This document shows positions 1 through 58,640 of a DNA stretch of 64,000 nucleotides, piece by piece. Position 1 is the stretch's first letter, and each line of letters opens with the position of its first letter. Source of the stretch: Henckelia pumila. Lineage: Eukaryota; Streptophyta; Magnoliopsida; Lamiales; Gesneriaceae. Where the stretch lies: positions 1,178,001-1,242,000 of the forward strand of contig NC_133121.1 in assembly GCF_033568475.1 (NCBI RefSeq). Direction: 5' to 3'. The position numbers and the translations under genes were made by a program. The notes under the pieces are model-generated. The model saw nothing but the letters and a program-made list of their open reading frames with translations. It had not been told where the DNA came from and ran no database searches.

Positions 1-2105
1 TCTCAACTGATCGACGTTCGGTACCCACATCCTACCACGGTACTGAACAATGCCATCCATAACTGTATAAAGACGACCACCCTTGGCCTCATCTCTCTGC
101 CTCCAACGCTGTAACTCCTCATCAGTAGTCTGTCCAACTCTGATCCGATCTCGTAGAATCGGTTGCACCGTCAACACTGACAAGCTCGGTGCATGACCAC
201 TCGAGTAAAACTCCAAATCAAACCTCTGAATCTCGCTCTGCAGTGGTAACTGTACTGTCAAACACGATACCATTGACGACTTCCGACTCAAAGCATCGGC
301 CACTACATTAGCTTTACCTGGATGGTAGCTAATGTCACAGTCGTAATCCTTCACCAACTCCAACCATCTCCGTTGCCTCATGTTCAACTCGTTCTGAGTG
401 AAGAATTACTTGAGGCTCTTGTGATCAGTGAAAATCTTGCACTTCTCACCATACAGATAGTGCCTCCAGATTTTCAAAGCGAAGACCACTGCTGCTAACT
501 CCAAATCATGTGTCGGGTAGTTCTGCTCATGAATCTTCAACTGCCTTGATGCATAAGCAATAACCTTACCACACTGCATAAGTACTGCGCCTAACCCTAG
601 CTTAGACGCGTCGGTGTACACCACTAACTCCTCGTGTGGTACTGTCATCGCTAAAACCGGTGCGGTAGAGAGTGCTTCCTTCAGCTGATCGAAGCTCCTC
701 TGACAGTCTGGACTCCAAATAAACTTCGCATTCTTCTTGGTTAAGGAAGTCAAGGGTACTGCAATAGAGTAAAAACCCTTGATGAACTTCCTATAGTATC
801 CTGCCAAACCCAAAAAACTGCGGATCTCTGAAGCATTCTTTGGAATCCCCTAATTCTGAACCGCCTCAACCTTCGACTGATCCACTGCAATCCCATCTCT
901 CGAAATAATGTGGCCAAGAAATGCCACCTGCTCAAGCCAAAACTCGCACTTGCTGAACTTGGCATACAAACGATGCTCCCTCAAAGTCTGCAAGGCTGTC
1001 TGTAGATGCTGTCTATGCTCCTCAATGCTCCTAGAGTAGATCAAGATATCATCAATGAAGACTATGATGAACTGATCAAGATACGGCTGAAATACCCGGT
1101 TCATGAGATTCATGAAAACCGCTGGAGCATTGGTCATCCCAAATGGCATCACTAAGAACTCGTAATGCCCATAACGTGTCCGGAAAGCAGTCTTGGACAC
1201 ATCTGCATCTCTAACTCGCAGCTGATGATAACCAGATCGCAGGTCGATCTTGGAGAACACCGAAGCTCCCTGCAACTGATCAAATAAGTCCTCTATCCTC
1301 GGCAGTGGGTACTTATTCTTCACTGTGACCCTATTGAGCTCTCGATAATCGATGCACAGCCTCATACTGTCATCCTTATTCTTCACAAATAACACTGGAG
1401 CTCCCCATGGAGAAAAGCTAGGACGAACTAAGCCTTTCTCTAATAACTCCTATATCTGCTCCTTCAACTCTTTCATCTCGGTAGGAGCAAGTCTGTATGG
1501 TGCCTTAGAGATAGGCACGGTGTCTGGCACTAAGTCGATGCTGAACTCTACATCTCTCACTGGTGGAATTCCTGCAACATCCTCCGGAAAGACGTCCGGA
1601 AAGTCACGAACCACCTCTATCTCTGATAATGATCTGCTAGATGGTCCTGAGGCCGTGACAATACTTGCTATAAAACCTTGGCAACCCCGTCTCAACAACT
1701 TTCTCGCCTGAATAAGAGATATCACCTGAAGAATATCACTGCTCTGAGATGCATGGAAGGTAAACGGGTCACCTTCTGATGGTTTTACTGACACTGTCCT
1801 CCGACGAAAATCAATCGAAGCTCCATTGACTGTCAACCAGTCCATACCCAATATCAAATCAAACCCGCTCAACGGCAAAACCACTACATCTGCGCGAATG
1901 GAGTGCCCCTGTAGCTCTAACTCCAGCTCTCGGATGACGCTAGAGGTAGTAATAATCTGCCCTGACGGCATAGTGACATCATAACCACTGTCGGCAATCT
2001 CAGGTGTGATGCCTATCCGTCTGATAAACTCTAGGGAGATAAACGAATGCATAGCCCCTGAATCTAGCAACGCAAACGTGGAGTTGCCTCCAACTAGAAT
2101 TCTCC
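1..2105 (-). pseudogene. gypsy pol remnant: protease, reverse transcriptase, RNase H, integrase start
   Basis: Open blocks at 1450-2105 (aspartic protease, core ALLDSGAMHSFIS), 850-1395 (reverse transcriptase, [15 protein letters not shown] and FIDDILIYS with the catalytic DD pair) and 406-813 (RNase [15 protein letters not shown]) lie in one frame, separated by single stop codons. Below 405 the frame continues as the RNase H tail ([16 protein letters not shown]) and the start of the integrase zinc-binding region. Product role: polyprotein maturation, reverse transcription and integration of the element. With at least three stops in the open region it cannot make a full Pol. The first protease codon joins in frame to gag if 2106-2315 is spliced out. 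Confidence 0.9.
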
Positions 2106-2315
2106 CTGCACGCAAAAGAATCCCAACAATTTCATATTATTACTAAACTTTTCCCCCAAAGATGAGTCACTAATAACCCTTAATTCTAATCACAAGTAAA
2201 ACATGCTTCCTATTCTAACATGCAGATAGGAAATCCCAAATAACAAATATTCCAAAGAAAAATCGAAATTCTTAACCAAATGAAGAAATCATAAAATACT
2301 AAGGGTAAGATATAC
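2106..2315 (-). other. intron-like segment between gypsy gag and protease
   Basis: On the minus strand a GTATAT donor at 2315 and a TGCAG acceptor ending at 2106 bound 210 bp of AT-rich, stop-filled DNA. Removing it joins ...LITG to RILVGG in frame, which is how this protease start usually reads in related gypsy polyproteins (from memory). Unspliced RNA would end Gag at the TAG at 2299-2301, a few codons into the segment. The segment has no terminal inverted repeat and no flanking duplication that I can see. Splicing is inferred from sequence only. Confidence 0.6.
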
Positions 2316-3353
2316 CGGTGATCAAGGAGGTGTCTGGGTCTGCCTCCTCTGCCTGCATAACGAACACTCTACCAGTGGTGTTTTTCTTCCTCGGGCAGTT
2401 AGCTATCTGGTGCTCTGGCTCTCTACAGTGGAAACAAACTCCTGCTCCCAGAAGACAAGGTCCCGAATGCATCTTCTGACACTTCGGGCAAGTAGGAAAA
2501 CCTCCAGTATTAGGGACCCCGCCCCTCGGCTGTTGTGGCCTCTGCTGCTGGTTTGGGCCCTTAGACGGCCCAGTATACTGCTTATTCGCAGGAGGCTGCG
2601 AAGATGGTCGCTGAAATCCAGACTGAATTTGTCTCTTCCCCTGCTGCTCTCGCTGTATCTCTCTCCTACCCTCCTCTGACCTCAGTGCTCTACTAACTGC
2701 CGCCTCATATGTAGCGACGTCCATCATACGTACGTCATGCTTGATATCCGCCTTCAGTCCCTCCTCAAACTGCCTCATCTTCTCCGGTGGACTGTCTGAA
2801 ATCAGAGGCACAAAATGACAGCCTCTCTCGAACTGTCTCACATACTCAACCACTGACCTGTCCCCCTGTCGGAGACTCATAAACTCCCGGATCATTCAAC
2901 TGCGCACATCCTCCGTGAAATACTTGGCGTAGAAGATACGCCTAAACTCCGCCCAAGTCAATGTAGTAAGATGTACACCCCTGGCAGCACCCTCCCACCA
3001 AAGAGTTTCATCGCCCTTCATCATATAAGTCGCACAGTTCACCCTGTCGGCGTCAGTAATCCCCATGTATGCAAAGATGGACTCCAAAGAGCGAATCTAC
3101 CCCTCAGCCACCAATGGATCGATGGTACCAGTGAACTCCTTCGGCCCCTTCTTCTCGAACCGCTCAGCAACGTCCTCCTCGTGGGACAGTCTAGGACGTG
3201 CAGCCTGCTGCTCCAACAGAGCAGTAATCCCAGTCATCATGTTTGCATTGGCCTGCTTCAATGCTGCAATAGGGTTCTGCGGAGGTGGAGGTGGAGGTGG
3301 AGGTGGAGGTGGAGGTGGAGGTCCCCGCGTCTATTCATCGGTCTCGGAGGCAT
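2299..3353 (-). pseudogene. gypsy gag remnant with zinc knuckle
   Basis: The capsid/nucleocapsid protein of the element. Visible parts in order are a proline-rich N-terminus encoded by a GGTGGA microsatellite (about 3283-3322), a retrotransposon gag domain (IFAYMGITDADRVNCATYMM; LWWEGAARG; FVPLISDSPPEKMRQFEEGL), a glutamine/proline-rich linker, and a zinc knuckle in which all four CCHC ligands are present, although the glycine before the histidine is glutamate (CFHCREPEHQIANC). In-frame stops occur at 3097-3099 (probably from TGG) and 2896-2898 (probably from CGA). The ATG at 3351-3353 is out of frame with the proline-rich part. Non-functional. Confidence 0.88.
3283..3322. repeat. GGTGGA hexanucleotide microsatellite
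   Basis: About seven tandem GGTGGA units lie inside the gypsy gag start and encode polyproline in the gag frame on the minus strand. Confidence 0.9.
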
Positions 3354-3542
3354 TCTGCACCACCACATTTTTTTTTACGTAAATCAACATGCATAACTAA
3401 GTACTTAAAAATTTTCTGCTAACATAAATGCTTAAGTCTTAAACATGATACGACTAAATCAGACTAAAAGCAATTAAAACTTACAGACCGGTAGCGTGGA
3501 TTTCTGAGCTCGCATAGCAGTAATGACCCCTCTAAGGACCGT

Positions 3543-3554
3543 GCTTTGATACCA
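3543..3554 (-). other. primer-binding site of the gypsy element
   Basis: The minus strand reads TGGTATCAAAGC two bases inside the LTR end. This is one base off the TGGTATCAGAGC complement of initiator tRNA-Met used by many plant LTR elements. It fixes the orientation and the LTR boundary. Confidence 0.88.
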
Positions 3555-3556
3555 AC

Positions 3557-5901
3557 TGAAACGACCCTAACTCTCTAAATATAAATAAATATGCGAAATT
3601 TTTTTTATACACTTACTAAGTAAAAATATATACATACATGCCCATACATATATGCACAGAATAAATAGATTTAAAAATAAATAACTTAAATAAAAATGCA
3701 ACCTTTAATAAATTAAATATCCGAGTCTAACATTTAATAAAATACTGACATAAGCAAAATAAATAAAATTTGCATGCACTGAAAATATTTAAATAAAAAC
3801 ATACAATAGTGTCAATTACTGAAAATAAATAAAAATATATAACATGATAAAATATTCGAAACATGCATATAGACTCAGACAACGGTCACGGAGTCACTGC
3901 ATGTCCGCTCATAAGTCCTCGTCGCCGGTGGGTACTACATCCTCCTCTACGTACTCACCTGCACCATATCAGTATAGTGAGCCTAGAGGCCCAACATGCT
4001 AACATAACAAGGGTTTAAAATAATTTAAATCACTTTAATACTAATACATAACATATACATGAATGAGCATGCTTAAAAATATCATGAACATAACATAAAC
4101 TTAAATTAAACTTGAATATCATAATAATACATAAACATTGTTGAGCAAAGTATTTTCTAACATCGAAAGGTCGTATCCATAGTGTAACCATACATACATT
4201 AAATACTGATCAGCGTGGTAAACCAACGTACGTGGCGGTGACGAATCACCTCTTAAATTAGCAGTAAACTGCCCTTCAATAATTCACATATGGGGACGAA
4301 TCCCCCTCAAATTGTCACACTACTTCAACTTCCAACATAAAATTATTTTATTTTGCTCAACCTTAAACATTAAATCATGCATAAAAATTATTTCATGAAT
4401 GCATGCACTTAAATAAAATGTGTGTCCTTCATATATATTTAATTTAATTTCATACTAACATATAAATATTAAAAATAACTTCCATGCATAAAAATAATTA
4501 AATATATAACCAGGACACATGCAATTTCTCATGGGTTGTACTGAACTGCTGGCCCTAACACTCAAGATCATTTTCTTAAATTCTGGCCCATTAACATACT
4601 TAAGCCCGTTAACACATTTCTAAGCCCAATAATTTAATTAAAGCTCATTAGCACATACTTGGCCCAATAACAACTTAATCTGGCCCAATGGGCCCAAAAG
4701 CCCAAAGACTGGCCCAATAACTTCCATGGGCCCCCAAGCTCATAAAATTATTGGGCTAACTTACTTAAATTTATTTAAGCCCAAAAATAATTAAATTTAA
4801 TCCAAAATAATTAAGTGGAGCCCAATTAAATTTTTGGGATTTAATTAGGCCCATTTAACATTTAATTAAACTTAAAACTTAAAAATAAAAATACCCGAGC
4901 CCGACTAACTTGACCCGAACCCAACTAACATAACCCCGAACCCATTGACTTGACCCGGACCACCAACCCAACCCGGACCACCAAACCCTAACACGAACCC
5001 TACACCCTATCCCGCTGCTGCTGCGGCCGCGAGCAGCAGCCCTTCTAGGGCTGCTGCCGCCCTGCTCCGGCCGCCCCTAGCCGGAGCGCCGCCGCCCAGA
5101 CGTGGCCCACCTCTGGACGGTCCTAACCTGCACCAGCCCCCAGCCCCATGCAGCCTGCACCACCATAACCGAAGCCCCTTCCACTAGCCCTAAACCTGCG
5201 CCGATCTGCACCAAAGTTGGTGCAGTCAAGTCCAGCCCTTTCCTAGCCCTCTCCAGCCTTAACCATCGAGCCATGCCTAGCCTAGGGACCCTAAAGAACC
5301 CTGACCAGCAGTCATACGAGCCATGGCTAGGAGAAAACGTGAATATGATCAACAAAATACAAGAACCATGCGCATACATCCAAAAACCGATTTGATCTTC
5401 TGAAATTTTCAATGAAAAGTCTGATGCCTACACACACACGCATATACTATAAAATAATAATTAAAATATTACTAATAATAAAAATCTGATGTAAAAGCAT
5501 AAATCCCAAAATTATAATTTAAGGAATTTTTAAAATTTAATAAAAGTCATTAAAATGACTTATTTTGGCTAAAAATAAATCCTTAAATAAATATATAAAT
5601 AAATACTAAAATTTTCTTGACAAAATACCTTAAAATATTATTTTTAGGCTCATAAAACTCATAAAATATTTTTGGCTAAATATTTTGGTATCTCGTCCGT
5701 CCACGGTCTCGTCTACGCAATCAAAACAATTAACTTCCATAAATCATGAAAATCACTAATTATGGGTTAAATGCTTAAAAATAACTTAAAACATGCACAA
5801 ATAATTTCACATAATTATTTAACCCATAATCTAAAATTCTAAATAAATAAAATCCCTAATTATGCATGCGAATTTACGTACTAAAAATATTGGGTGTTAG
5901 A
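3557..5901 (-). repeat. 5' LTR of the gypsy element (2.3 kb)
   Basis: The LTR ends on the minus strand in ...CGTTTCA, two bases before the primer-binding site. Its start is placed at TCTAACACCC (5892-5901), which looks like the common TGTAACACCC terminus with the G changed. The LTR is AT-rich except for a GC-rich stretch at about 5010-5110. A 111-codon minus ORF inside it (5077-5412) has no recognisable domain and is treated as chance. The outer boundary is less certain than the inner one. Confidence 0.75.
5010..5110. repeat. GC-rich hairpin cluster in the gypsy LTR
   Basis: In an otherwise AT-rich LTR this roughly 100-bp block is built of GCTGCT/GCAGCA units. 5033-5043 (GCAGCAGCCCT) pairs perfectly with 5047-5057 across a TCT loop, and a CTCCGGC/GCCGGAG pair follows. 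Its function is unknown. Confidence 0.75.
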
Positions 5902-6383
5902 TAATGTGGACTTGAGTACTGCAAGTGCTGCTGAAGAGTGAGCAAACCCTGTCACTTTTGTGTGCTAAATTACCCCCAAGCAAAAATCTGTGATGGAACT
6001 CAGCTTTAAATGTCATTTGACTTGATTGTTTTTGTTAGAGAAGGGGAGGTTGTAGCAGATTACTCAGATCCAACCATGGGCCAAAACAACATGCCCATAT
6101 ATAAAGTTTACACCAGGAGGCACAAGGCCCAGGAAGGCAGGAAGTGACAGTTGTATGTCACGCGGGAAGGTGGAGTTAGGGGAATAAATAAATGGGGAGT
6201 GGGAAAGGGGAGTTAGTTAGCGAATATTTTGTAGTGGATTCTCGTTTGAGAATTGGGGTAAAAGAGATTGAGTGTTTTTTTCTTTTATCTGTGAGAATTT
6301 TATTTTCTTTCGGCGATTGCTATTTCAGTTCATATAAAAATAATTTTTTAATCTTCATTTCAATCTTCACGTGATCGTATCAA
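5902..6383 (+). repeat. probable 5' LTR/leader remnant of the older gypsy element
   Basis: This stretch precedes a gypsy gag on the plus strand. It has LTR-like features: a TATA-type run (atatataaa, about 6098-6106), purine-rich stretches, a T-rich segment and a sequence ending near 6370 just before gag. No matching 3' LTR is present after 14712, so the borders cannot be fixed. No gene is visible. Confidence 0.45.
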
Positions 6384-7198
6384 GTGGTCCGACCTGCTGA
6401 ATATCGATCGGAGAGACAAATGGCGATCACACGTGCTGATGAAGCATTAGAAAAGTTTTTCGGAGGATCGGAGGAGCGGGGCAAAATGATGGAGCTGCGG
6501 ATGCAAGGTTTGGAGGCAAAAATGGAGGAGCTAGGGGAAATTCGAGTTATAGTACAACAAATTTTGAAAGGAATGAGAAACAAAGTGACAGAGAATGAGA
6601 GGGAGGAAAGTAACTGGCAAGCCAAAGACAAAGGAACGAAGGAGACAATTAACCGAGAAGAATTTGGGGGCGAACAGAATACTGGTAACTTATTTGGGAG
6701 AAATTTTGGATTCGACGAGATGAAGCATGCTATGAAGAGGATTGATCTACCTTCGTTTGACGGGGACGATCCACTTGGGTGGATTGCCAAAGCTGAACAC
6801 TATTTTGAAATCAACTCCACTCCTCGACAACATTGGGTTCTGATTGCTTGTAATTTCATGGAGGGTCCAACGTTGCATTGGTATCGTTGGATTAAAAAGA
6901 AAATTCAAGAATTAACATGGGAGCGATTAACTAAAGAGCTGTTGAATTGATTTGGGGACTGCCAGGAGATGTATCCGTATGAACAGCTGATGTTTTTACG
7001 CCAAAATTCCTTGAAGATGGATGAATATATACAGAAATTCTAGTTGTTAGTGGCACAGGTACCAGAGCTACCTGAACACAATACCTCGGTATTTTTTGGG
7101 TGGGCTGAATGAGGAGATCCGGGTGAGGGTGAAAAACCATGGACCGACTACAATGATGAAGGCGATGGCGCCTACATGCAATATCGCAGTTCCGATTT
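6384..7198 (+). pseudogene. gypsy gag, N-terminal part, cut by the MULE
   Basis: An open stretch at 6384-6950 carries a charged coiled-coil-like N-terminus (EERGKMMELRMQGLEAKMEE) followed by a retrotransposon gag domain (LPSFDGDDPLGWIAKAEHYF; MEGPTLHWYRW). A TGA ends it at 6950. The same frame continues (YEQLMFLRQNSLKMDEYIQKF) past a TAG to the MULE junction at 7198. The reading resumes after 12200 in a glycine/proline-rich linker. Non-functional. Confidence 0.87.
7190..7198. repeat. left target-site duplication of the MULE
   Basis: TTCCGATTT directly before the terminal repeat matches TTCAGATTT at 12201-12209 at 8 of 9 positions. Nine bases is the usual duplication length for Mutator-like elements. 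Confidence 0.85.
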
Positions 7199-7353: not shown

Positions 7354-8393
7354 AACGTTTCTTTTTCTTTGACTCCATACTAATGTTTTTTTTCATTTGT
7401 TTTGTCATTTCTTTGTCTTCAACGTATTAGGGATTCTTCTTCCTCCAAATTTTTTTCCCTTCGTTACCAAGATTTTTATTCTCTGTTCCATTTTTAAAAA
7501 CAAAATTTCAAGGAATCTTCAACAACAATGCAAGGTAAACAATATGTATATTATTAAGTCTGTGGTATAATTAATTCTTAGTATAATTAGTTCTCTGTTT
7601 TTTTTTTCTTTTTTTAAAATTGTTGGCGTTGTTGCAAGAGAAGTGATGAAGAATTTATGGACTGTGTTCCCTTCTTCTTGCAAATATCACGTGTTAATTC
7701 TTTGTTTCGATGTCATGCTCATGATCATGCTCATGATCGATAGTTTATACACTGTAGTTTCATGAAATCATTGAAATTCATGGAGAATCTATGGATTGTG
7801 TTCCCTTCTTCTTGCATATATCATGTATTAATTATTTGCTTCAATTTTTGCTCTTGATCAATATCTTATGCATTGTAGATCATTGAAATTCTCAAATGTT
7901 AGTGCTTTCGCGTGCCAAATTTCGAGGTTGTAGATAGTATCGGTAGTTTTTAATTGTTTTCTTGGATTGGTCTAACTATCTTTTGGTATCTGAGTTTTGG
8001 AAGAAAAGTTGATAAAAACTCAAGAGATTGCACCTTTTTATTCGTGGATAACATTATTGCTTCATGAATTAATTTGGTTGTTAACTAGATTGATAGTTAG
8101 TTTGCAAGGAACACTGTTTCGACCAGCCTCCTTGAGGCTTCTATCACTTCTGGCATTCCTCTTCTCTGGTATTAGTTGTGGGTTTTTCCTTTTTCTAGCT
8201 ATTTTTCGGAAAGAGATGACAGTTCAGAAATTTTCGGATGTTGTTTGCTTCATAGTTTTTTATGATTAAATGCTTACTTTCCTATGCATTTCTGGCTCAC
8301 TTTAAACTGATTATCCTATGTGTGACTGAATGCAGATTTCATATATCAATACTGAGACAATCCAAAAATCTAATTGATCAGCCGACATTCTTG
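7354..8393 (+). other. 5' untranslated region of the MULE
   Basis: AT-rich DNA without a recognisable gene. A possible donor after 7532 (GCAAG|GTAAAC) and an acceptor ending at 8335 (AATGCAG) suggest a leader intron before the transposase start. TGCTCATGATCA-type direct repeats lie near 7710-7740. Confidence 0.5.
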
Positions 8394-10830
8394 ATGGATT
8401 TCAGTTCAGATTTTGAATTCAAGCCTGAGATTGGTATGATATTTAATAGCCTAGATGAGGCTTGGAAGTTATGGATTAACTATGGTGGAAAAACTGGATT
8501 TGGAGTTCGAAAGCATTTTTTTAACAAGAACAAGAATGGCATAATAACTTCATACAAATATGTTTGTTGCAAGGAAGGTGTTTGCAAGGAAGACAAAAGA
8601 GATTCTTTGACAATTAATCCTCGGCTTCAGACTCGAACAAATTGTAAAGTAAGAATGGGAGTCAAACACGTGGACAATAAGTATAAGGTTTATGAGTTTA
8701 TCGAAGAGCATAATCATCCTCTCCATCTTCTAGAGGCAACTCACATGTTAGCTTCCCAACGTAAAGTTACAGAAGTCCAGGCCTATGAGATTGATTTGGC
8801 AAAGGATGTTGGGCTTAAACAAAAATCAACTTTTCAGTTGTCAAGTATACATGCAGGAGGAAGAGATGGTCTAGGTTATACCATTTTGGATGCTAAAAAC
8901 TATATTCGATCCAAAAGACAGAGAAGTATGGTATATGGGGAAATTGGTTGTCTGATGCGTTATTTTCAACAACAATTATCCAAAAATCCATCATTTTACC
9001 ATGCTAATCAGATGGATTTGGAAGAGAAGATAACTAATGTTTTTTGGGCCGATGCAAGAATGTTAATTGACTATGAATACTTTGGAGATGTTGTGTCATT
9101 GGATACCAAATATTGTACAAATCGTGCACACCGTCCACTTGCTATATTTTCAGGTTTCAATCATCATAGTGGAACAGTGATTTTTGGTGCAGCACTTTTG
9201 TATGATGAAACTGCAGCATCGTTTATTTGGTTGTTTGAAACTTTTTTTAGAGGCACACAAGCAAAAAAAGCCTCTAACTATCTTTACCGATCAGGATCAA
9301 GCCATGGCAAAGGCCTTGCATGAAGTGATGCCTGAGATATTTCATGGATTGTGCACATGGCACTTAATGCAAAATGGCATCAAGCATTTGGGAAATTTGA
9401 TGAAGGATGGTTCTCATTTTTTAACTGATTTTAAGAGGTGCATGTATGGTATTGATGATGAGACTGAATTTGAAGAGTCGTGGAGGTTTTTACTTGAAAA
9501 ATATAATGTTCATGAAAACACATGGCTGCAATCTACTTACAATATAAAGCAGAAATGGGCAACTTGTTATATGAAGAATGCTTTTACTCTTGGTATGAGG
9601 AGCACACAACTAAGTGAGAGTGTCAATTCTGATATGAAGAGTTGTATGACGCCAGAGTTAGACATAATGCAATTTTTCAAGCACTTTGAAAGGGTCCTGG
9701 AGGATAAGAGGTACAACGAGCTGAGGTGTGAATTTGAGGCACGACAAAAATTACCGAGATTAAAACTAGAGAGTTCTCCTATGTTGCGTCAACTTTCTGA
9801 AATTTATACCCCTACTGTGTTTCATTTATTTCAAATGGAGTTTGTTTTGTTCGCAGCTGCTTACATTAAATATAGAAATGAAACTCAACCATTATTTGAA
9901 TATGTTGTCGGGTTAATAGATAAGGACGGAGAATGGAAGGTGACATTTAATCCCAATACCAAGATGATTTTATGTAGTTGTAAAAAATTTGAGATGACTG
10001 GATTATTGTGTTGTCATGTTGTGAAAGTGTATGATGTGATGGACGTGAAAAAACTTCCAGAGCATTATATCTTGAATAGGTGGACAAGAAAAGCTCGAAG
10101 TGGAGTGGTGCATGATTATATGGGCAATGAAGTAGAAGAAGATCCTAAGCTACAAAGTACAGAATGGTATAGGAAACTTTGTATGATGCTCGTAAGACTA
10201 GCAACTGAAGCATCTGTCCATCCATTAACTTTCTCTTTGGTGCATAATTCGGTTTGTGATCTAACTAAGAAGGTCATGGAAATGCGTCTGACAGAAGTGA
10301 GCCAAGACAGCGAAGGGGCTAACACAATATCATTAGTACCTTCCATGACACAGGCAAAGGGGTTCAAGAAGAGAATTGGTGTGAAAAAATCAAGACGATT
10401 GAAAAGTTGGGTAGAACTTCAATCAAAACGAAGAAAAACAAATTTGAGAGTCAAGGTATATAAATTCATTAATGTCGATATTTTTGAGAAACAAATGATC
10501 TAGATCGTTTTTTTACGATTATTGTAGGACATTGAGACACATGGAGAACAATCAATATCTTGTTCAGCACCTCCGGTACCTCATGCGCATCTTCAAGCAA
10601 CTGGAGGTCAATTCAATTTCACTGAATTCATGATGGTAATTAATTTTAATGATATCTTGAAAAATATTTAAATTTTAATAAAGTTAGACAAATAAAAAAA
10701 TTATTTTATAAGGTGAAAAGTTTTGGTTTATAATGTGTATTATTATTTCACGTAGGCGCCACTTGACCATCCTGAGTATTCTCTTGAAGCCATGGATTTC
10801 AATGAAAATATATCCAATACATATTCTTGA
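8394..10830 (+). CDS. FAR1-like MULE transposase, one frameshift
   Basis: A transposase of the family from which the FHY3/FAR1 transcription factors derive. Start ATG 8394 (MDFSSDFEFKPEIG). Domains: FAR1/WRKY-GCM1 zinc domain (about residues 15-115, NYGGKTGFGVRKHFF to EEHNHPLH), MULE catalytic domain with probable acidic residues in VVSLDTKYC, IFTDQDQAMAKAL and LSESVNSD, and a SWIM zinc finger (LCSCKKFEMTGLLCCHVVKV). Exon 1 runs 8394-10455; in-frame exons follow at 10528-10635 and 10756-10830, ending in TGA, for about 747 residues. The frame shifts by one base in a run of seven A at 9263-9269. Either this copy is disabled or the run is a sequencing error. The two small 3' exons are inferred from splice sites and phase. 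Confidence 0.88.
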
Positions 10831-55341: not shown

Positions 55342-58158
55342 CTATAGCCAACTAGTCATACTACGTAGACCCATTGCTTCGCGATGTTTGTCAAACAATG
55401 GTCCTGGCAAGGGCTTAGTAAGCGGATCAGCGATATTGTCTGCAGAGGCCACTCGTTCGACAATGATGTCTCCTCTTTCCACAATCTCCCGGATTATGTG
55501 GTATTTCCTCAGTACGTGTTTGGATCTTTGATGAGACCTTGGTTCCTTTGCTTGAGCAACGGCACCCGTGTTGTCACAGTACACCGGGACTGGACCAACA
55601 AATTCAGGAATAACGCCCAACTCTTGGACGAACTTCCTCATCCAAACGGCCTCTTTAGCAGCAGCTGATGCTGCAATGTATTCAGCCTCAGTGGTGGAAT
55701 CCGCTGTGGTGTCCTGCTTGGAACTCTTCCAAGAGACAGCACCGCCATTGAGCATGAACACAAATCCAGAGGTTGACTTCGAGTCATCCACATCACTTTG
55801 GAAGCTAGAGTCGGTATAGCCTTCCAATTTGAGTTCTCGTCCTCCATAAACCATGAACATATTCTTAGTCCTTCGCAAGTACTTAAGAATGTCCTTCACG
55901 GCTTTCCAATGCATTTGACCAGGATTAGACTGATATCTGCTCGTGACACTCAGAGCAAATGCTACATCCGGTCTGGTAGATATCATCCCATACATGATAC
56001 TACCTATAGCTGACGCATATGGTACATGTGTCATATTCTCTATCTCTTCATCAGTCTTGGGACACATAGACTTGGATAGAGAAACTCCATGACACATGGG
56101 TAGATGTCCTCTTTTGGACCCATCCATTGAAAACCGTTTCAATATGGTATCGATGTAGGTTGATTGAGTGAGTCCTATCATTCTCTTAGACCTATCTCTA
56201 TAGATCTGTATCCCAAGAATGTAGGATGCCTCTCCCAAATCCTTCATCGAAAATCTACCTGATAACCATATCTTTGTTGACTGCAACATCCCTACATCAT
56301 TCCCAATGAGTAGGATGTCATCAACATAAAGTACTAAGAATGTCACCGCATCCTTAACTACTTTCTTGTACACGCAAGGTTCCTCCGGGTTCTTGATGAA
56401 ACCAAAATCTTTTATTGTTTCATCAAATTTCTGGTTCCAACTTCTTGATGCTTGTTTTAGACCATAAATTGATCTCTGAAGCTTGCATACCTTATGCTCG
56501 CTTCCCATGGATGTGTACCCCTCAGGCTGCTTCATATAGATTTCCTCCTTAATGTCTCCATTAAGAAAAGCAGTCTTCACATCCATTTGCCATATCTCAT
56601 AGTCATACCATGCAGCTATGGCAATTAGGATTCTTATGGACTTGAACATTGCAACTGGTGAAAAGGTTTCGTCATAGTCAACTCCTTGCCTTTGAGTATA
56701 ACCTTTAGCCACCAATCGCGCCTTGTAGGTCAATACCTTACCATCAGGCCCAAGCTTTCTTTTGTAGATCCATTTACACCCTATCGGAACAATTCCATCG
56801 GGAGGATCTACTAAAGACCAAACTTGGTTTGTATGCATCGAATCCAATTCTGACTGCATAGCTTCAAGCCATAAATTTGAATCCGCATCAGAAATTGCTT
56901 CCTTGAAGTTTCTTGGATCACATCCAATGTCGGGTTCATCTTGATCCCCTTCAAGAAGAAGACCATATCGAACTGGAGGTCTAGAAGTCCTTTCGGATCT
57001 TCTAGGTGCAGGCGTGTCCAGCAATGGTTCCTGAGGTGTAGGATCGTTATTTTGTATTTTGGGTTCTTCTCGAACTTCTTCGAGTTCCATCATCTCGCCT
57101 TTCTTATCCAATAAGAACTCCTTCTCCAAGAAGGTGGCATTCCTAGAAACAAACACCTTTGTTTCATCAGGATAATAGAAATAATATCCGATTGAATTCT
57201 TCGGATACCCTACAAAATAACATAAGCTGGATCGACTATCCAACTTATCTCCCACTGTCCGCTTCACGTAAGCAGGACATCCCCAAATCCTCAAGTACGA
57301 ATACTTAGGAGCTTTGCCATTCCATAACTCGTATGGTGTTTTGTCCACTGCTTTAGTGTGGACGTTGTTCAACAACAATACCGCCGTTTCAAGCGCATAG
57401 CCCCAAAACGAAGGTGGAAGCTCAGTGAAGCTCATCATAGATCGAACCATGTCCAACAAAGTTCGATTACGACGCTCCGATACACCATTAAGCTGTGGTG
57501 TCATAGGAGGAGTCCACTGAGAGAGAATCTCATTCTCTTTCAGATAGTCCAAAAACTCGGTACTCAAGTATTCTCCACCTCGATCCGATCGAAGTGCTTT
57601 AATACTTTTACCTAGCTTGTTTTCTACTTCAGCCCTGAATTCTTTGAACTTTTCAAATGCTTCAGACTTATATTTCATTAAATATAAATACCCATACCTT
57701 GAATAATCATCAGTAAAGGTAATGAAGTAGGTGTGGCCATGTTGAGTCCCTACTCTAAATGGACCACAAACATCTGTATGGATCAAATCCAACAGATTCT
57801 GACTACGCTCAGGTTTCCCCTTAAAAGGAGATTTAGTCATTTTTCCTTTTAGACAAGATTCACAAGTAGGTAGAGAGTTAATATCCGACATATCAAACAT
57901 GCCCTCTCCCACTAGCTTGTTCATCCTTCTTGAGAAAATATGACCTAGCCTAGCGTGCCATAGGTTTGCCGGGTTTTGACTATCGTTTTTCCTTTTGTTT
58001 GTTGTAGCCGGTTTATCAACATAATTCATTGGAACGTCTTTTAGTTTTAAGTTGTATAGATCGTTTTCAAATTGTCCATTTCCAATTAAACATTCATTCT
58101 TGTAAATATTGCAAATCTCATTCACAAAATTGCAAGAATAACCATCTCTATCTAGCAT
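55342..58158 (-). CDS. copia integrase-reverse transcriptase-RNase H polyprotein
   Basis: 938 codons open without a stop. Domains in order: gag-pre-integrase (LWHARLGH at 66-73, CESC at 99-102), integrase core with D129 (HTDVCGP), D192 (RSDRGGEY) and E228 (PQLNGVSERR) in the D-D-35-E spacing, reverse transcriptase (D526 in QMDVKTAF, YVDD at 611-614) and RNase H (YTDSSF near 787, TTEAEYIAAS). The frame opens in the middle of the normal polyprotein: two frame changes between about 58160 and 58250 separate it from the protease. The enzyme domains look intact, unlike the upstream parts. Confidence 0.93.
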   Translation of the reverse strand: MLDRDGYSCNFVNEICNIYKNECLIGNGQFENDLYNLKLKDVPMNYVDKPATTNKRKNDSQNPANLWHARLGHIFSRRMNKLVGEGMFDMSDINSLPTCESCLKGKMTKSPFKGKPERSQNLLDLIHTDVCGPFRVGTQHGHTYFITFTDDYSRYGYLYLMKYKSEAFEKFKEFRAEVENKLGKSIKALRSDRGGEYLSTEFLDYLKENEILSQWTPPMTPQLNGVSERRNRTLLDMVRSMMSFTELPPSFWGYALETAVLLLNNVHTKAVDKTPYELWNGKAPKYSYLRIWGCPAYVKRTVGDKLDSRSSLCYFVGYPKNSIGYYFYYPDETKVFVSRNATFLEKEFLLDKKGEMMELEEVREEPKIQNNDPTPQEPLLDTPAPRRSERTSRPPVRYGLLLEGDQDEPDIGCDPRNFKEAISDADSNLWLEAMQSELDSMHTNQVWSLVDPPDGIVPIGCKWIYKRKLGPDGKVLTYKARLVAKGYTQRQGVDYDETFSPVAMFKSIRILIAIAAWYDYEIWQMDVKTAFLNGDIKEEIYMKQPEGYTSMGSEHKVCKLQRSIYGLKQASRSWNQKFDETIKDFGFIKNPEEPCVYKKVVKDAVTFLVLYVDDILLIGNDVGMLQSTKIWLSGRFSMKDLGEASYILGIQIYRDRSKRMIGLTQSTYIDTILKRFSMDGSKRGHLPMCHGVSLSKSMCPKTDEEIENMTHVPYASAIGSIMYGMISTRPDVAFALSVTSRYQSNPGQMHWKAVKDILKYLRRTKNMFMVYGGRELKLEGYTDSSFQSDVDDSKSTSGFVFMLNGGAVSWKSSKQDTTADSTTEAEYIAASAAAKEAVWMRKFVQELGVIPEFVGPVPVYCDNTGAVAQAKEPRSHQRSKHVLRKYHIIREIVERGDIIVERVASADNIADPLTKPLPGPLFDKHREAMGLRSMTSWL

Positions 58159-58159
58159 A

Positions 58160-58640
58160 GAAACAGAAATAATGTTTTAATTAAATCTGGAACAAATAAA
58201 ACATCTATCAAAAGTAACTTAAAACCGTTCTGCAAAAATAAATATTTCCCATAGCTATGGATTTAACTCTGGAACCATTCCCGAGCCTTGACTGGGTCTC
58301 ACCCATCCTTATCCTATTACTTCTTGTTATCATTTGCAACTCATTGCAAATATGAGATCTACATCTGGTATCCAATACCCAAGAAGTAGTATTAAGAAAA
58401 ACATTTATTTCAATGTAAAACATACCCTTTGCAGTTCGCAACTGCTTGGGGTATTCCTTGCAGTTACGTTTCCAATTACCGGGTTTCTTGCAGTGATGGC
58501 AAACTTGTTTAGACTTGTCCAATTTTGCATGTAACATTTGGCCTTGAGATCATGGTCCAACCATTTCTCTAATTCGGCCAACCTTTCGGCAGTTACATCA
58601 GCCGGGGCTGTTTTCGGAGAAGCCTTTTCTAACACTTAAA
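58160..58640 (-). pseudogene. copia gag C-terminus and protease remnant
   Basis: The minus strand carries the last part of gag (TAERLAELEKWLDHDLKAKC), a zinc knuckle whose histidine is replaced by asparagine (CHHCKKPGNWKRNC), and the protease region where the usual DTG reads DTR (WVLDTRCRSHIC). A frame change lies just after the gag tail, and others near 58240 and 58170. Everything N-terminal to the gag tail is missing. Confidence 0.85.

Follow-up and report, generated by a model that had tools for sequence, protein, structure and literature searches.

Repeated exact absence from genomic copies strongly supports a spliceosomal intron between gag and protease in a probable chromovirus family of Henckelia pumila

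Most groups of plant long terminal repeat (LTR) retrotransposons encode the polyprotein in a single open reading frame (ORF), and Bianca and Ogre are named for separated ORFs in the available passages of a survey (PMC6317226). Plant LTR elements were described in a 2025 review as generally without introns, with Ogre and EVADE as the exceptions in the excerpt (PMC12786077). In this study, a Ty3/gypsy element was analysed in a 64,000-nucleotide stretch of the genome of Henckelia pumila (Gesneriaceae), which corresponds to positions 1,178,001 to 1,242,000 of contig NC_133121.1 and is hereafter called the window. The element carries a 210-bp segment between gag and protease. The related copies in the genome strongly support this segment as a family-wide spliceosomal GT-AG intron of a probable Ty3/gypsy chromovirus, the splicing of which is shown indirectly through these copies.

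Ogre, a plant Ty3/gypsy element of the Tat lineage, is similar in that its coding region also contains an intron. Only a fraction of its transcripts is spliced, and the splicing joins parts of the polyprotein (PMC6317226). However, the Ogre intron lies after the protease, whereas that of the window element lies before it. Ogre is also a non-chromovirus, of a lineage with a second RNase H, whereas the window element has a chromodomain-like C-terminus, which speaks against its membership in Ogre/Tat. Tekay chromoviruses share with the window element the domain order of Gag, protease, reverse transcriptase (RT), RNase H, integrase and chromodomain, the last being a chromodomain-like match in the window element, and a tRNA-Met primer site, the match in the window being presumed. 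Such a primer site is present in most chromoviruses, and no gag/pol gap is named for Tekay in the survey passages (PMC6317226), whereas the window element has such a gap. In the Ty1/copia elements BARE1 and EVADE, splicing near the gag/pol border produces two RNAs, one of them for Gag alone (PMC3735527, PMC12786077). The logic is reversed here. Their unspliced RNA is open for Gag-Pol and their spliced RNA encodes Gag alone, whereas in the window family all 28 copies examined have a closed unspliced frame. Spliced copies of BARE were not amplifiable from genomic DNA (PMC3735527), whereas many segment-free copies exist in the window family. Bianca (Ty1/copia) has two ORFs with a mean separation of 172 bp (PMC6317226). 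Its separated ORFs resemble those of the window element, but it belongs to the other superfamily, and neither splicing nor the precise place of the gap is reported for it in the excerpt. Spliced isoforms were described for expressed sunflower elements (PMC7730604). A report of an intron at the gag/protease joint was not found in the excerpts of open-licence literature on Tekay/chromovirus or gypsy introns and splicing. The principle of a coding-region intron is already known from Ogre. What is new is where the intron lies, that its host is a probable chromovirus and that intron-free daughters are numerous.

On the minus strand, the segment begins at 2315 with GTATATCTTACCC and closes at 2106 with GCGTGCAG, and it reads GTATATCTTACCC...TTTTGCGTGCAG as a whole. 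It splits a glycine codon after the first base. The T content of the segment is 44%, compared with 21% in the preceding 210 bases of gag and 28–30% in the following 210 bases. Plant introns are T-rich relative to exons. The 210-bp segment with a GT donor and a TGCAG acceptor, which the first-pass annotation had proposed, is real, and its ends are exact. By itself, an open join between GT and AG is unremarkable, and 11 of the 56 pairs around both ends of the window segment give an open in-frame join. Two facts raise the segment above chance. The protease profile is broken at the segment, and the segment-free copies join exactly there. The RVP_2 match in the window protease starts only at profile position 24, whereas it runs unbroken from position 3 to 122 in L060, a natural segment-free copy (copies are designated by L numbers), with position 24 being the split glycine. 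Therefore, the first positions missing from the window protease are found in the end of Gag across the segment, and the earlier claim that Gag and protease would be continuous here held true.

The first stop in the Gag frame is at the same TAG in 27 of 28 segment-bearing copies, and it is nine bases farther in L086. In all 28 copies, including that of the window, the segment is closed in all three frames. The Gag frame contains 4 to 10 stops, and each of the other two contains one or more. The segment lengths are not bound to multiples of three. Because the segment closes all frames, unspliced RNA would give Gag only, and a Gag-Pro-Pol fusion would be made from spliced RNA only. The first-pass statement that Gag stops on unspliced RNA at a TAG 15 bases in is supported, and such RNA would not yield Pol by continued reading.

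The host genome was searched over 885 Mb. Full or near-full-length matches to the segment were found in at least 40 places, those listed being the window itself and 39 others at 93–96%. The exact donor 22-mer occurs 612 times, and its backward control does not occur. The exact 22-mer of the segment-free joint occurs 84 times, with 0 for the control. Exact 22-mer counts miss any copy changed within the 22 bases, so both numbers are undercounts. Only these exact pattern counts were used, and the first-look candidate counts of 1547 for the segment and 1539 for the joint were dropped as copy numbers. Among 28 copies chosen by segment similarity (the window copy included), the donor GT is kept in 27 and the acceptor AG in 27, and the segment is 210 to 215 nt long. 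A further 12 copies, all on contig C1, were sampled by the donor pattern alone. Their segments are 201–214 nt long and diverged by up to 17.6% from the window segment, and the acceptor AG is present in 12 of 12. The check on other genomic copies, suggested earlier, thus found the segment and its splice sites kept. The GT donor and the AG acceptor are conserved among the copies, as a spliceosomal GT-AG intron requires.

The joint probe gave at least 40 matches, and all of the 40 listed span the joint. Thirty of these segment-free copies were fetched. In every one of them the joint is base-exact at the GT/AG ends, with nothing missing or added. Other gaps of at least 50 bases are rare in 58 aligned rows. 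There is none in the 780 bases downstream, and one in the 900 bases upstream is common to L048 and L049.

Trees were built from the left and right flanks separately without the segment, and they are unrooted. The left-flank tree needs at least seven changes of segment state, four of them forced by well-supported branches. The first version of the right-flank tree needs at least ten, with three forced. After addition of three divergent segment-bearing copies (L101, L092 and L100), the right-flank tree needs at least ten changes, with seven forced. This enlarged tree leaves out L072, L055 and L044, which had long branches or an odd placing in the first trees. A single clade of segment-free copies was rejected on it by the approximately unbiased test (p = 2.3e-35). 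L101 is placed within six rows that are otherwise segment-free (support 100/97), L100 is placed within four such rows (100/99) together with L054 (96/82), and L092 pairs with the segment-free L056 (100/99). Judged by these trees, the segment-free copies are polyphyletic and not one group. The distances of the segment and of the exons correlate in 40 copies (r = 0.56, a value reached by 0 of 2000 permutations). This favours vertical inheritance of the segment. The segment seems to be old within the family, and its absences seem to be repeated and later. Because the trees are unrooted, the basis of this reading is how many changes of state they need and how far the segment has diverged. The absence is exact, recurrent and spread over several lineages. 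Repeated exact removal at the GT/AG ends, on different backgrounds and in copies made through RNA, argues that the spliceosome removes the segment. It is the signature of reverse-transcribed spliced RNA, through which splicing is shown indirectly. The earlier proposal of a spliceable intron is strongly supported in this way.

Several points weigh against this explanation. It rests on genomic copies, so that the evidence is indirect. The window copy is broken and is therefore silent on current activity. The donor CG/GTATAT deviates from what we take to be the plant consensus. Recombination seems to occur in the family, as the left flank and segment of the segment-bearing copy L006 group with one set of copies and its right flank with another. 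In some segment-free copies, the joint may therefore stem from a different copy instead of the copy's own spliced RNA, and few lineage-telling sites lie close to the joint. A single early loss could have been followed by the spread of the segment-free joint among lineages through template switching in reverse transcription, and splicing would then be shown once only. With few lineage differences between –17 and about +73, a short double switch would leave no trace. On the other hand, a double switch within about 90–130 bases would be needed on several backgrounds. A core segment-free group was named after the first flank trees had been seen, and its make-up varies slightly between comparisons. 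Fourteen segment-free copies outside this core were tested. On each of the two 150-base flanks, ten of them (L039, L040, L041, L043, L044, L055, L062, L063, L064 and L065) are closer to a segment-bearing copy than to every member of the segment-free core. For L064, the left and right distances are 1.3% and 2.7% to the segment-bearing copy, compared with 16.7% and 8.0% to the core. L055, L063 and L064 keep the sites of their lineage to –56, have at –17 a site absent from the core and show sites of the segment-bearing type from about +73, and their left 150 bases are 17% different from those of the core. The flanks of the other four copies (L056, L047, L051 and L054) group differently, which had favoured a spread of the joint. 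Their interpretation as mosaics of two groups was dropped, because the segment-bearing L092 and L100 show the same combination. They match these copies on both sides. The differences from L100 are 0/78 on the left and 21/700 on the right for L054, 1/78 and 15/700 for L047, and 2/78 and 21/700 for L051, and those of L056 from L092 are 2/78 and 28/700. Their own spliced RNA appears to be the simpler source of the joint, at least for the L064/L063/L055 group, L062 and the L039–L043 group. Within the core group, several copies show few or no differences close to the joint, which may often be inherited there. Overall, a single loss followed by spread seems unlikely. The switch in L006 itself looks like recombination near the 3' end of the intron.

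An insertion of mobile or random DNA into an intronless element, which would make the segment-free copies the original state, is less probable still. More distant elements of the same genome (30–45% amino-acid identity) read through the joint in 30 of 30 cases, but they were chosen for a continuous match and the frequency of gaps is not readable from them. They indicate that the segment was probably gained at a deeper level. Within the family, no target duplication of at least 3 bases was found flanking the segment, and the segment-free copies are scattered through the tree. The divergent segment-bearing L101, L092 and L100 each adjoin different segment-free copies, in a tree that is unrooted, and the divergence of the segment follows that of the exons. 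The simple insertion left open by the first-pass annotation is thus not upheld at this level. Expression could also proceed without splicing, if stop readthrough, frameshift or re-initiation allowed unspliced RNA to yield Pol. Stop readthrough and frameshift are frequent ways of getting from gag to pol in other elements. However, they would have to pass the many stops in all three frames of all 28 copies, and no fold was predicted in the window segment. Re-initiation is unaffected by both points. Synthesis of Pol without splicing is given the smallest probability of the three alternatives, close to that of the insertion.

We consider it very probable that the segment is a GT-AG intron in the Gag-Pol frame, with unspliced RNA serving for Gag and as the main genome, and spliced RNA serving for Gag-Pol and sometimes being copied. 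The intron would interrupt the frame after the last conserved residues of Gag and before the protease. In the unspliced part of the transcripts, Gag would end at the TAG just past the donor, and these transcripts would be the main genome copied into new insertions. Spliced transcripts would be read on into protease and the rest of pol, so that Gag and Pol are made as a fusion. Which of the two forms a transcript takes would then set the ratio of Gag to Gag-Pol, which is plausible from the arrangement of the frames. Spliced RNA would occasionally be copied and give intron-free daughter copies. Partial splicing in a given tissue, its effect on the ratio and a packaging preference are what we infer from the genomic copies. 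The excess of 612 donor matches over 84 segment-free joints fits unspliced RNA as the chief genome. It had been proposed that unspliced RNA is what gets copied. It does seem to be the main template, but spliced RNA appears to have been copied and inserted too, several times.

A first impression that the segment evolves far slower than the exons (3.8% against 14–21% at third codon positions) was rejected, because the sample had been chosen by segment similarity and was biased. In the 12 donor-sampled copies, the median pair differs by 9.6% in the segment. For the near exons, the difference is 6.7% at all positions and 11.5% at third positions. In view of these figures, strong constraint on the segment as a whole is no longer claimed. 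An inner stretch (Table 1) is the most constant part among lineages. In its best part, 17 of 20 columns are constant in 13 rows, compared with 8 of 20 in the adjacent T-run part. It is possible that this stretch is a signal for splicing control or packaging. RNA fold prediction for the window segment gave no supported structure (z = +1.07; an equally good or better fold in 172 of 200 shuffles), and only 1 of 41 pairs in the predicted fold has changes on both sides, so that covariation does not support it either. Intron-bearing and intron-free elements could be two interconvertible forms, with intron-bearing parents continually giving rise to intron-free daughters by way of their own spliced RNA. 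The intron would nevertheless persist in most copies and across diverged lineages since unspliced RNA is preferred for packaging or since an excess of Gag pays, and the constant stretch would hold back splicing or mark the unspliced RNA. We propose this tentatively, as somewhat short of an even chance. A candidate second intron in the leader, beginning with GTAAGT near 3484 and closing with GTGCAG near 3355 just ahead of the gag ATG, was rejected because it is not lost along with the main segment. The block from the primer site to the ATG is kept in all 26 of the 30 segment-free copies that match there.

The first 5.9 kb of the window hold the 5' part of the element on the minus strand, with the 5' LTR, primer site, gag, protease, RT and RNase H (Table 1). 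The remainder lies past window base 1 on the same contig (L089), and it contains an integrase H2C2 domain, an SH3-like domain (SH3_Tf2-1) and a chromodomain match. The Chromo match after the integrase, preceded by those of H2C2 and SH3_Tf2-1, has an E-value of 3e-5 and 24.3 bits, narrowly below the curated Pfam cut-off of 25.1. This domain layout is that of a chromovirus, and the element is probably one. The clade name Tekay is presumed from the type of sequence and not taken from a tree placement. The window copy is decayed, and stops break its gag and RT reading frames. Its gag stretch closes with the conserved end that corresponds to RVP_2 positions 3–23 as seen in the segment-free L060, and a zf-CCHC match was found in the homologous stretch of L060. 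The primer site is presumably complementary to the 3' end of initiator tRNA-Met. The inner end of the 5' LTR is an estimate taken from the primer site. The 5' and 3' LTRs are 97.2% identical over 458 bases and 96.1% over 465 bases, 923 bases being aligned altogether. The 3' LTR in L089 (contig C2, 1175401–1178000) is broken by about 280 bases and then runs into the start of another LTR copy. A short GGTGGA repeat of likely variable length lies near the start of gag (3281–3322).

Table 1. Features of the Ty3/gypsy element in the window
Feature	Position	Strand	Basis or details
5' LTR	3560..5899	minus	likeness to the 3' LTR in L089
Primer binding site	3541..3556	minus	sequence; tRNA match presumed
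gag, C-terminal half (open stretch)	2302..2895	minus	Retrotrans_gag, E 5.9e-6
TAG ending Gag on unspliced RNA (predicted)	2299..2301	minus	segment bases 15–17, five codons past donor
Intron (strongly supported), phase 1, 210 nt	2106..2315	minus	donor CCG/GTATAT (GT 2315–2314), acceptor GTGCAG/GG (AG 2107–2106); segment-free copies join here
Most constant inner intron stretch among lineages	2165..2221	minus	45/57 columns invariant in 8 rows
Protease exon, start of pol	1453..2105	minus	RVP_2 positions 24–134, E 3.3e-24
Reverse transcriptase	853..1449	minus	RVT_1, E 1e-38
RNase H	409..849	minus	RT_RNaseH_2, E 3e-32

Other elements were also observed in the window. Near the 5' LTR, positions 6375–6950 on the plus strand presumably hold a piece of a second gypsy-type gag. 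Two overlapping long frames with a frame break are present at 8256–10503 on the plus strand, and we take them to resemble a FAR1/FHY3-type or Mutator-derived gene. An apparently well preserved open frame of 944 codons at 55342–58176 on the minus strand is presumably a Ty1/copia pol.

It has long been asked how retroelements with a single RNA produce a large amount of Gag but little Pol. In most plant groups, the answer is concealed by a single open frame, according to the survey passages (PMC6317226), whereas here the switch would be visible in the DNA. A marked-intron assay proved the RNA intermediate of the yeast Ty elements (PMC12786077). The intron-bearing copies of this genome, which number in the hundreds, and its exact intron-free copies, which number in the dozens, would be a natural version of that assay. 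From sequence alone, they may allow one to address how often spliced RNA is packaged, how successful intron-free lineages are and why the intron is kept.
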